A stretch of 39,899 nucleotides of DNA from Patescibacteria group bacterium (GTDB lineage Bacteria; Patescibacteriota; Patescibacteriia; Patescibacteriales; JAQVLT01): contig JAQVLT010000009.1 of NCBI GenBank assembly GCA_028704015.1, positions 1-39,899 of the forward strand, given 5' to 3'. Made by a program: the position numbers and the translations under genes. Of this stretch, positions 14,834-17,099 are shown one piece after another (position 1 is the stretch's first letter; each line of letters begins with the position of its first letter). The notes beneath the pieces are model-generated. The model did no database searches, was not told the DNA's origin, and saw only the letters and a list, made by a program, of their open reading frames with translations.

Positions 14834-14869
14834 AAATTTTAAATTTTAAATTTTAAATTTTAAATTTTT
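14834..14869. repeat. (AAATTTT)n A/T tandem repeat
   Basis: About five copies of a 7-bp AAATTTT unit lie in the 490-base stretch between tsaB and the four-helix-bundle gene. Apart from this repeat, the promoter, the MraZ boxes and the RNA-like hairpins described separately, I see nothing else in that gap. One DnaA-box-like TGTGGAAAA occurs at 14819-14827. Confidence 0.7.
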
Positions 14870-14949: not shown

Positions 14950-14978
14950 TTGACCAAAGCGTAAAAGTGGTGTATAAT
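14950..14978 (+). promoter_or_regulatory. Near-consensus promoter of the dcw operon
   Basis: TTGACC (14950-14955), 17-base spacer, perfect TATAAT (14973-14978). It is the best -10 in the window and is followed 10 bases later by MraZ-type boxes. Confidence 0.8.
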
Positions 14979-14988
14979 TATAGTATTG

Positions 14989-15013
14989 AGGTGACAAGTG
15001 GGGAATATAGGTG
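14989..15013 (+). promoter_or_regulatory. Probable MraZ operator: three 10-bp-spaced boxes
   Basis: AGGTG (14989), TGGGG (14999) and AGGTG (15009) are separated by 5-base spacers. This matches the known MraZ operator design of three to four TGGGN-like repeats with 10-bp period just downstream of the dcw promoter. The boxes cover the likely transcription start, so MraZ would repress its own operon. The mraZ gene is about 640 bp away, not the usual few tens of bases. Confidence 0.65.
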
Positions 15014-15052
15014 AATTAATGAAAATTGATATTTGAAACAAAAATAAAATAT

Positions 15053-15201
15053 TTCTCGATTTTAGTTAGCCAAGACAATTCGCGCTAACTGCGAGAAGCG
15101 TAAACAAGGCTTGCTCCGGGCCTATCGGAACAAATCTTTAATAATTAAGACAAAGAAGGGGTCTAGTAAGCTATCAAGGCTTACGAGACTTCTCTTGGGC
15201 C
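15053..15201 (+). ncRNA. Predicted structured RNA in the dcw leader (unknown class)
   Basis: Three strong hairpins lie in tandem. The first is TTCTCG/CGAGAA plus AGTTAGC/GCTAACT (15053-15097). The second is TTGCTCCG/CGGAACAA around loop GGCCTAT (15111-15133). The third is a 16-bp arm at 15156-15171 pairing with 15179-15194, with one mismatch and two wobbles. GGCC in the second loop could pair with GGCC at 15198-15201. No Rfam class I know (rnpB, tmRNA, 6S, group I core) fits. It may be part of the inserted element or a regulatory leader. Confidence 0.4.
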
Positions 15202-15203
15202 TT

Positions 15204-15645
15204 AATGAATAATGAGTAAAGAAAAATGAATAATAATCCTAAAGATAGAGATAGATTTAAAAAAGAATTTGCCCGTAGAGTTCATAAATTTATTTTAGAA
15301 CTTATAAAATTTATTGATAGTTTAGAAAAGAATGATCCGACTTGTAGAATAATCGGTAATGATCAGTTGTTGCGCAGCGGGACAAGTATTGGAGGAAACT
15401 ATTTTGAAGGTCAATCTGCGGGGACTAGTAAAGAGTTAGCTAGATATTTCACAATGTCACTTAAATCAGGAAATGAATCAAAGTATTGGTTGATACTTTT
15501 AAGAGACTCAGGTAAATGCGATAAAAATAAAGCGAATTATTTATTAAAAGAATTAATAGAAATTTGTAATGTTTTAGCGACAAGTGTTAAAACTTTAAAG
15601 AATAAATTTTAAGCATTACTCATTTTCCATTATTAATTATTCATT
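15204..15645. mobile_element. IVS-like element: inverted repeats flanking a four-helix-bundle ORF
   Basis: AATGAATAAT (15204-15213) is the reverse complement of 15636-15645, and ATGAGTAA (15212-15219) of 15616-15623. The pair forms an imperfect terminal stem around the ORF at 15226-15612. This is the layout of intervening sequences known from bacterial 23S rRNA genes, where an S23-family ORF sits in a terminal stem. Here it lies in the leader of a protein operon. The true left border may be further upstream and include the RNA hairpins. Confidence 0.45.
15226..15612 (+). CDS. Four-helix bundle protein (23S rRNA IVS/S23 family, Avd-like fold)
   Basis: The 128-residue basic protein has the hallmarks of the S23/TIGR02436 family. 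These are an N-terminal helix with FARRVHKFILELIKF, the conserved LLRSGTSIGGNYFEGQSAGT turn (about residues 46-65), SLKSGNESKYWLILLRDSG, and a final KELIEICNVLATSVKTLK helix. These proteins form pentameric nucleic-acid-binding bundles, and the fold is shared with Avd of diversity-generating retroelements. No reverse transcriptase or variable repeat is seen here. The gene lies between the dcw promoter and mraZ, inside inverted repeats. Its own function is unknown; RNA binding is a plausible inference. Confidence 0.85.
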   Translation: MNNNPKDRDRFKKEFARRVHKFILELIKFIDSLEKNDPTCRIIGNDQLLRSGTSIGGNYFEGQSAGTSKELARYFTMSLKSGNESKYWLILLRDSGKCDKNKANYLLKELIEICNVLATSVKTLKNKF

Positions 15646-15652
15646 CACATTT

Positions 15653-16084
15653 GTGTTTATTGGAGAATACAATCACAATCTTGACGAAAAAGGACGCTTG
15701 GCAATTCCTGCTAAAATGCGGACTTTATTAAAGGGCGGAGCAGTTGTTACCAGGGGCTTGGATAACTGTCTTTTTTTGTACCCCAAAAAACAATGGAATA
15801 TTTTAGCTGAAAAATTAGCAAAATTACCAATTAGTCAGGCAAAAGCTCGGGCTTTTTCACGTTTAATGCTGGCCGGCGCCATGGATGTTGAGTTTGATAA
15901 TCAAGGCCGTATTACTTTGCCGGAATATTTACGCCAGTTTGCCGGTTTGGATAAAAAAACCATAGTTGCCGGATTGTATGACCGCTTGGAAATTTGGGAT
16001 GAAGAAAAGTGGAATAAATATAAAACAAATTCAGAAAAAGACAGCAATGATATAGCCGAGACAATGGGAGCGTTGGGCGTATAG
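15653..16084 (+). CDS. mraZ: MraZ transcriptional regulator
   Basis: This 143-residue protein is of normal MraZ length with two SpoVT/AbrB-like halves. The N-terminal half begins FIGEYNHNLDEKGRLAIPAK and the C-terminal half carries the matching EFDNQGRITLPEYLR. Each holds the D-x(2)-GR-x-x-(I/L)P core that contacts DNA. MraZ forms a ring and represses the dcw operon by binding repeated boxes after the promoter. The start is GTG at 15653, the only start giving the canonical N terminus. It has no Shine-Dalgarno and lies 7 bases beyond the inverted repeat. rsmH follows 40 bases downstream across an AGCTTTTAG linker. Confidence 0.92.
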   Translation: MFIGEYNHNLDEKGRLAIPAKMRTLLKGGAVVTRGLDNCLFLYPKKQWNILAEKLAKLPISQAKARAFSRLMLAGAMDVEFDNQGRITLPEYLRQFAGLDKKTIVAGLYDRLEIWDEEKWNKYKTNSEKDSNDIAETMGALGV

Positions 16085-16120
16085 CTTTAAGCTGTGAGCT
16101 TTTAGCTTTTAGAATTTTAA
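16084..16120. repeat. AGCTTTTAGC-type linker between mraZ and rsmH
   Basis: Repeated GCTTTAAGCT/AGCTTTTAGC units, like those at 122-160 and 19626-19662. They share short inverted symmetry (AGCTTTAAGCT). Confidence 0.5.
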
Positions 16121-16124
16121 GTTT

Positions 16125-17099
16125 ATGGAATACAAACATGTGCCAGTAATGCTTAAGGAGGTAATTGAATATTTGCAGCCGAAAAAAGGACAATATTTTT
16201 TTGATGGAACGTTGGGAGGGGGAGGATACACTGTCGAGATTTCTAAACTTGTTGGTGAGAAAGGGAAAGTGTTGGCAACTGATTTGGATGAGATGGCAAT
16301 CGAAAATTTTAAATTTAAAATTTTAAATTTAAAATTAAATAACATAAATATATATCATGGAAATTTTAAAGACATTTCAAAAATCAGCGAAGAAACATTG
16401 GGGTCTAGCGTCAGGTATGATGGCATTGTACTTGATTTGGGGTTATCATCAGCTCAACTCGAAGATAGAAGTCGGGGATTTTCTTTCCGTTTTGATGCGC
16501 CGTTAGACATGGCCTTTGGCGAGACGGCAGACGGCACCTGCCTGCGCAGGCAGGGACGGCAGACGGCAGATATTATTAATAAAACAGGAGAAAAAGATTT
16601 AGAGAAAATAATTAGAGAATATGGTGAAGAGAGGTTTGCTGGTAGAATCGCCAAAGGAATTGTTGAAGCGAGAAAATTAAAAGAAATAAAAACTACAAAA
16701 GAGTTGGTTGAAATAATCGCGGATGCAGTTCCGGCAAACTATAAAAATAATCCGAAAATTAATTTCGCAACACGCACCTTTCAAGCTTTGAGAATTGCAA
16801 CTAATCGTGAATTGGATAATTTAAAAGAATTTTTACCGCAGGCGGTTGAATTATTAAAGCCGCGAGGAAGATTGGTGGTCGTTTCTTTTCATAGCCTGGA
16901 AGATAGAATTATAAAAGAATTTTTCAAAACAGAAAGTATAAATTGTCTTTGTCCGCCGCGTTTTCCGGTTTGTCAATGCGGCCATAAAGCTAGTTTGAAA
17001 ATTATTACCAGAAAACCAATTACGCCCGCTAGCGAAGAATCAAATAACAATCCGCGCGCCCGCAGCGCTAAATTAAGAGTTGCGGAAAAAATAGTTTAA
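16125..17099 (+). CDS. rsmH: 16S rRNA (cytosine-1402-N4)-methyltransferase RsmH
   Basis: This 324-residue enzyme is the SAM-dependent methylase of 16S rRNA C1402, classically the second gene of dcw operons (mraW). Visible family motifs are HVPVMLKEVIEYL at the N terminus, FFDGTLGGGGYTVEI (SAM site), VLDLGLSSAQLED, RGFSFRFDAPLDM, NPKINFATRTFQALRIATN and RGRLVVVSFHSLEDRIIKEF. Two things are odd. About 13 residues (GTCLRRQGRQTAD) after PLDMAFGETAD are encoded by a palindromic repeat inserted in frame. A Lys/Asn/Leu-rich stretch near residue 62 is encoded by AAATTTT-like repeats. Both lie in loops and leave the motifs intact. It sits between mraZ and the ftsL-like gene. Confidence 0.93.
   Translation: MEYKHVPVMLKEVIEYLQPKKGQYFFDGTLGGGGYTVEISKLVGEKGKVLATDLDEMAIENFKFKILNLKLNNINIYHGNFKDISKISEETLGSSVRYDGIVLDLGLSSAQLEDRSRGFSFRFDAPLDMAFGETADGTCLRRQGRQTADIINKTGEKDLEKIIREYGEERFAGRIAKGIVEARKLKEIKTTKELVEIIADAVPANYKNNPKINFATRTFQALRIATNRELDNLKEFLPQAVELLKPRGRLVVVSFHSLEDRIIKEFFKTESINCLCPPRFPVCQCGHKASLKIITRKPITPASEESNNNPRARSAKLRVAEKIV
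16523..16568. repeat. Palindrome with flanking direct repeats inserted in rsmH
   Basis: The 18-bp palindrome CCTGCCTGCGCAGGCAGG (16537-16554) is bracketed by perfect 14-bp direct repeats GACGGCAGACGGCA (16523-16536 and 16555-16568). The insertion keeps the reading frame. It belongs to the CCTGCC...GGCAGG family also seen at 22303, 27157 and 30349. Confidence 0.85.

Follow-up and report, generated by a model that had tools for sequence, protein, structure and literature searches.

S23 proteins, for which crystal structures have been available since 2006, have to our knowledge been assigned no function, and we likewise know of no mode of spread for the intervening sequences (IVS) of rRNA genes. 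REPtrons are units in which a RAYT gene lies between inverted REPs. The 23S rRNA IVS with an S23 ORF, known from Leptospira and Coxiella (PMC4990558), are about 430-440 nt long and carry the ORF in sense in a loop, enclosed by terminal inverted repeats that form a stem of roughly 28-31 nt. In Coxiella, heptameric direct repeats (GACAGAT) lie beside the ORF, and excision of the IVS by RNase III has been shown (PMC4990558). Cas loci, too, can contain 23S_rRNA_IVP domains (PMC3936711), and so can the insertions that CPR bacteria carry in rRNA (PMC11270868). Arrays of heptanucleotide (7-nt) repeats between genes are known from cyanobacteria and xanthomonads (PMC4692102), and the TAACTGA repeats (PMC4679880) are of this kind; two arrays are often paired in convergent inverted orientation, with 70-75 such pairs in Xanthomonas (PMC4692102). 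Those of Xanthomonas and Nostoc were described without a cause and generally not with mobile elements (PMC4692102), and no link to S23 was reported in either paper.

The window analyzed here is a stretch of 39,899 nucleotides from a Patescibacteria genome (GCA_028704015.1, contig JAQVLT010000009.1; G000 below). In the leader of its dcw operon, an S23/PF05635 ORF lies between 31-nt inverted arms of degenerate 7-nt units (element 15204-15645, Table 1). We consider it likely, with a probability of about 0.7, that this is one copy of a mobile element consisting of an S23 gene in a hairpin of inverted heptamer arrays, on whose arms the S23 protein may act. The element resembles the 23S rRNA IVS in size, in the sense ORF in the loop and in the inverted-repeat stem, and differs from them in residing in the leader of a protein operon, between the mraZ leader RNA and mraZ, rather than in an rRNA gene. 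An Rfam search found rRNA at none of the 15 S23 loci of G000. In contrast to the heptanucleotide repeats in the literature, inverted pairs of the window type bracket S23 genes.

Table 1. Features of the mraZ leader region (positions in the window)
Feature	Coordinates	Strand	Remarks
mraZ/dcw promoter	14950..14978	+	TTGACC 14950-14955, TATAAT 14973-14978, spacer 17; host operon; sigma70-like, read directly
MraZ-type boxes GGTGACAAGT GGGGAATATA GGTGAATTAA	14990..15019	+	host operon; read directly
Hairpin H1, conserved mraZ leader RNA, loop CCAAGACAATTCGC	15064..15090	+	host, not element
Hairpin H3, conserved mraZ leader RNA, AAGAAGGGG core	15142..15208	+	final bases touch element left arm
Left arm	15204..15234	+	degenerate TAATGAA-type 7-nt units; overlaps first ORF codons; inverted repeat, lag-7 periodicity
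S23 / four-helix-bundle ORF, 128 aa	15226..15612	+	PF05635 and TIGR02436 matches, AF2 model
Right arm	15615..15645	+	inverted copy of left arm
mraZ, GTG start	15653..16084	+	TIGR00242 152.7 bits; first gene after element

The two arms are 84% complementary over 31 nt, an inverted repeat that stands out from Markov shuffles (z 5.2). In the predicted RNA fold the arms close around the ORF, and the fold of the whole region is unremarkable (z -1.4). A preliminary description of this DNA had named a consensus promoter with MraZ-type boxes, an S23-family ORF and inverted repeats ending 7 bases before the mraZ GTG, all of which are present at the positions in Table 1. It had also stated that no transposase accompanies the element, and indeed no transposase or recombinase is encoded there, the S23 gene being the only ORF of note, which separates the element from classical insertion sequences and transposons. 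Its central proposal, an IVS-like insertion in the dcw leader, holds as to the insertion, given the rarity of the ORF in mraZ leaders, an empty site in a related genome and the IVS-like architecture, while the borders had been drawn too wide. As read from the G035/G005 pair of genomes and the leader alignment, borders are good to about 10-30 nt.

The protein belongs to the S23 / 23S_rRNA_IVP family by both profile and predicted fold. It scores 59.7 bits against PF05635 (cut-off 33.8; E-value 3.8e-16) and 73.4 bits against TIGR02436 (cut-off 24; E-value 1.6e-20), and its AlphaFold (AF2) model (pLDDT 94.5) is matched by Foldseek to the S23 crystal structures 2rld and 2gsc. The predicted structure is a four-helix bundle, as in the pentameric S23 proteins. 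The same fold is found by Foldseek in Avd of diversity-generating retroelements (PDB 4dwl, 8ub8), to which the model is similar with a TM of 0.68. Unlike Avd, the window protein matches PF05635/TIGR02436, and the window holds no reverse transcriptase; the only RVT_1 match of G000 lies on contig 6. Polar residues along helix 2 are invariant (Q47, R50, S54, N58 and E61 in window-protein numbering), in agreement with the GxxRxxxSxxxNxxE motif noted in PMC3936711. Among related S23 genes dN/dS is 0.04-0.11, at dS>1 and thus with synonymous sites near saturation, and the window gene compared with its G035 counterpart gives about 0.11, again with dS near saturation; by these ratios the S23 ORF is under purifying selection. 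Some S23 matches contain in-frame stops (e.g., G035:C11:229-507, G005:C12:25623-25937 and G059:C21:7979-8290) and are probably decaying elements.

The host order presumably consists of CPR-type bacteria. mraZ was searched in the window genome and 97 others of the order, and 30 leaders, the window's included, were read. A matching -10 region precedes each of the 30 aligned mraZ genes, and the arrangement of MraZ-like GGTGA/GGGGA repeats in the window (at 14990, 15000 and 15010, with 10-nt spacing) recurs in relatives. The start codon is GTG in the window versus ATG in the 29 inspected relatives. The leader hairpins (TTAGCCAAGAYAAT..GCGCTAA and AAGRCRAAGAAGGGGTCTGAT..ATCAGNCTTCTC) are present in 20 of the 30 leaders, some in tandem (L017, L023, L024 and L029). 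In an alignment of 15 relatives, changes on both sides of the stem affect 5 of 7 pairs in H1; in H3 they affect 6 of 17. A covariance model (R1) of H3 scores 66.4 bits in the window (E 2.6e-13) and finds the motif in 31 of the 98 genomes of the order, every coding-strand match falling, by hand comparison with mraZ coordinates, in the roughly 560 nt that precede mraZ. In a search against Rfam 15, no family scored above the gathering threshold in the window, and permissive thresholds brought up only chance-like matches; under strict filters the leader RNA was not found in the sampled genomes of the same class outside the order. This RNA of one order is a candidate for cis-regulation of the dcw operon.

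These leaders alter two points of the preliminary description, which had assigned three hairpins to the element and assumed that mraZ normally has only a short leader. Since the hairpins occur in relatives without the S23 ORF, they were rejected as element parts and belong to the leader RNA of the host operon, at whose 3' edge the element starts; and in the inspected leaders, with the RNA in 20 of them, the start codon follows the -10 region at a distance of about 230-840 nt.

The dcw site itself is only rarely occupied. S23 ORFs are found in 2 of the 30 inspected mraZ leaders, those of the window and of G035, a member of another family, and the two proteins pair as nearest relatives (64-66% identity, SH-aLRT 99). 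Two congeners of G035 differ from it: in G005 neither ORF nor arms are present at the dcw site, which is thus empty, and in G024 a hairpin of the GAATTAT heptamer occupies it, with no ORF. The preliminary description had asked for such an alignment of relatives, some lacking the ORF, and G005, a congener of the second carrier, supplies the empty-site homologue. In the mraZ tree, G035 branches outside G005 and G024. This pattern fits either one old insertion, lost in part of the genus of G035, or two insertions of related elements. Because the closest kin of the window copy resides at the identical site in G035, the window copy may be an old insertion, not an active one.

Elsewhere the element is abundant. 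The window genome contains 15 S23 genes, 14 of them outside the dcw site, so that the element is not particular to the dcw operon; most of them lie within inverted arms, with a heptamer that differs from copy to copy. At least one S23 gene occurs in 57 of the 98 genomes of the order, with 15-19 in some. Significant inverted flanks (p<=0.05) were detected at 26 of 29 S23 loci of the order, versus 24 of 188 control ORFs, and the pooled lag-7 ratio was 1.41/1.38 at S23 loci of the order versus 1.11/1.14 at controls. Between paralogues at unrelated sites, similarity covers the ORF, runs on for 30-75 nt to either side and then ends. Among 93 S23 genes, 144 of the 161 pairs with at least 60% protein identity are at non-homologous sites, and in non-homologous-site pairs the similarity of the arms climbs with protein identity (27.9, 32.8 and 56.3, against a baseline of about 20). 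One subfamily (L101, L113, L115, L116 and L118), 85-90% identical, occupies five different sites in three congeners. That paralogues share ORF and arms, and that arm similarity tracks protein similarity, indicates that arms and ORF travel together. As is general for mobile elements, related copies are found elsewhere with similarity stopping at their ends, and relatives have empty sites. Four S23 matches are clustered on one contig of another genome (G014:C19 8534-12855). Several S23 arms of G000 (flanks of L008, L011, L014 and L015) contain or adjoin a REP-like palindrome of the CCTGCCTGCCGGCAGGCAGG type.

Nearly the whole G005 genome was compared with the S23 loci of its congeners, and for eight congener elements the G005 site is empty, ORF-less or changed. 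At L047 (dcw), L112 and L060 the site is empty, with no hairpin; at L088 and L122 the same hairpin is kept and holds no ORF; at L058 and L113 there is an ORF-less hairpin of a different heptamer unit; and at L136 there is half an array. No consistent target-site duplication or fixed target was seen at these eight aligned sites, where borders are imprecise. In the 1.06 Mb of G005 that were scanned, 39 strong inverted repeats were detected, 9 of which bracket S23 genes.

The same architecture extends far beyond the order. A scan of GTDB genomes yielded 80 S23 loci, which are distributed over about 15 phyla plus one archaeal MAG; these are the best matches to a cyanobacterial query via one peptide pattern and thus an uneven sample of the S23 family. 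Across phyla, inverted flanks are significant in 63 of 78 testable S23 loci, versus 12 of 103 neighbouring ORFs, and 7 is the best period in 38 of 49 loci at p<=0.01. The S23 genes of cyanobacterial plasmids and of one Riemerella plasmid mostly lie between inverted 7-nt arrays (for example of GGGAGTA, GGGAACA, AGGGTGT or GGTTCAA), the exceptions among 13 plasmid loci being 2 without arrays and 1 with direct arrays. Between co-directional genes, S23 is in sense 78 times and in antisense 4 times in the order set including plasmid loci, which by themselves are in sense in 10 of 12 cases; in the broad, cross-phylum set the counts are 56 and 1. Because control ORFs between co-directional genes are also mostly in sense (36 versus 4), the orientation of S23 indicates residence in operons and not, by itself, mobility. 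A CRISPR-cas operon of Picosynechococcus (L070) contains S23, with cas10 and a cmr3-family gene as its neighbours, and so does one of Pseudanabaena (L065), where S23 lies between cas6 and cas4; the S23 genes previously reported from cas loci may therefore represent insertions rather than cas functions.

Several other explanations have to be weighed against a mobile unit of ORF and arms. That S23 is an ordinary operon gene, a dcw-linked and non-mobile regulator of cell division, would agree with the purifying selection on it, its sense orientation and the identical site of sister proteins in two families; it is nevertheless very improbable and already largely refuted by the scarcity of S23 in mraZ leaders (just 2 of 30), the empty dcw site of G005 and the 14 other S23 genes of G000. 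The heptamer hairpins could instead be host-derived, through slippage and hairpin-templated repair, and S23 ORFs would then home into the loops of these pre-existing structures. G005 has just such hairpins without an ORF, identical at L088 and L122 and of another unit in the same place at L058 and L113, and the mraZ leaders L025, L029, L032 and L020 carry arrays without S23. We consider this unlikely, however, as related S23 genes have related arms even at different sites, the G005 sites of dcw, L112 and L060 are without any hairpin, and merely 39 strong inverted repeats exist in 1.06 Mb of that genome, with 9 around S23; moreover, the ORF-less hairpins may be read as deletion derivatives.

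The remaining alternatives concern the mover. The unit could be non-autonomous and depend for its movement on a Y1 (RAYT-like) or other host transposase acting in trans, with S23 as an accessory or passenger, which is a variant of the mobile-element reading and compatible with the part of it that is shown; we hold it to be possible though doubtful. REPtrons and MITEs, from general knowledge, resemble the window element in the small gene between inverted repeats, in ORF-less derivatives and in intergenic spread, and differ from it in that REPtrons have a Y1 transposase, not S23, and a fixed palindrome, not variable heptamer arms. Y1_Tnp matches number 5 in G000, on contigs 3, 11 and 23 and thus outside the window, and 1-3 in each of G005, G024 and G035, and family f8, with almost no S23, has few of them. 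On the other hand, G039 (11 S23) and G030 (6 S23) have no Y1 match, an absence that is weak evidence in draft genomes, and the arms lack one fixed recognition sequence and show no duplication. As a mover the Y1 transposase is suggestive and inconsistent, being found in many S23-bearing genomes and missing from others. Movement through an RNA intermediate by a reverse transcriptase acting in trans, as Avd works with the reverse transcriptase of diversity-generating retroelements, would accord with the fold similarity to Avd and the strong sense orientation, and is improbable in view of G005 (11 S23) and G024 (15 S23), which have no RVT_1 match; the enzyme was set aside for being missing from such S23-rich genomes. 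With Y1 and reverse transcriptase unevenly distributed among S23-bearing genomes, no mobilizing enzyme was found.

Under the preferred reading of a mobile S23 hairpin, the element would have landed in sense between the conserved leader RNA and the mraZ start codon and would, owing to that position and orientation, presumably be part of the dcw operon transcript. There the arms would pair and hold the ORF in a loop, as in the 23S rRNA IVS, and by analogy with these, host RNase III may cut the element out. The S23 protein probably acts on the arms of its own element, in RNA or single-stranded DNA form, and such action would probably help the unit to spread or persist. A role at the RNA level would fit the strong sense orientation. 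Were the arms at dcw cut, the resulting mraZ mRNA would lack the leader RNA and have a very short 5' end, and the insertion could thereby uncouple mraZ from leader control.

With 14 further sites in G000 and a presence in many unrelated phyla, the design would seem to represent a class of mobile element that is widespread, poorly recognized and not specific to cell division, and the 23S rRNA IVS are best read as one case of a mobile, operon-dwelling S23 element. A wider proposal, the odds of which we judge to be even, is that S23 genes with inverted heptamer arrays constitute one class of mobile, operon-dwelling hairpin across bacterial phyla and in at least one archaeal MAG, with rRNA IVS as its rRNA-resident members, many intergenic heptanucleotide repeats as arms or remains, and S23 as a protein that handles nucleic acid and is matched to the arms of its own element. 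No open-access paper linking S23 with heptamer arrays was found; the link ties S23 proteins, the spread of rRNA IVS and the heptanucleotide repeats together and makes all three testable, since the ORF and the arms are defined, empty sites are at hand and the sense orientation is strong.

Heptamer-like arrays without an ORF were also noticed around the window element, one of AAATTTT units upstream of the promoter (14834-14869) and one of AGCTTTT-like units between mraZ and mraW (16085-16124), besides those in the several S23-free mraZ leaders mentioned above. Within mraW (rsmH), at about 16518-16575, an in-frame stretch ETADGTCLRRQGRQ consists of GGCAGAC-type repeats and a CCTGCCTGCGCAGGCAGG palindrome, and it sits in a loop whose length varies among relatives.
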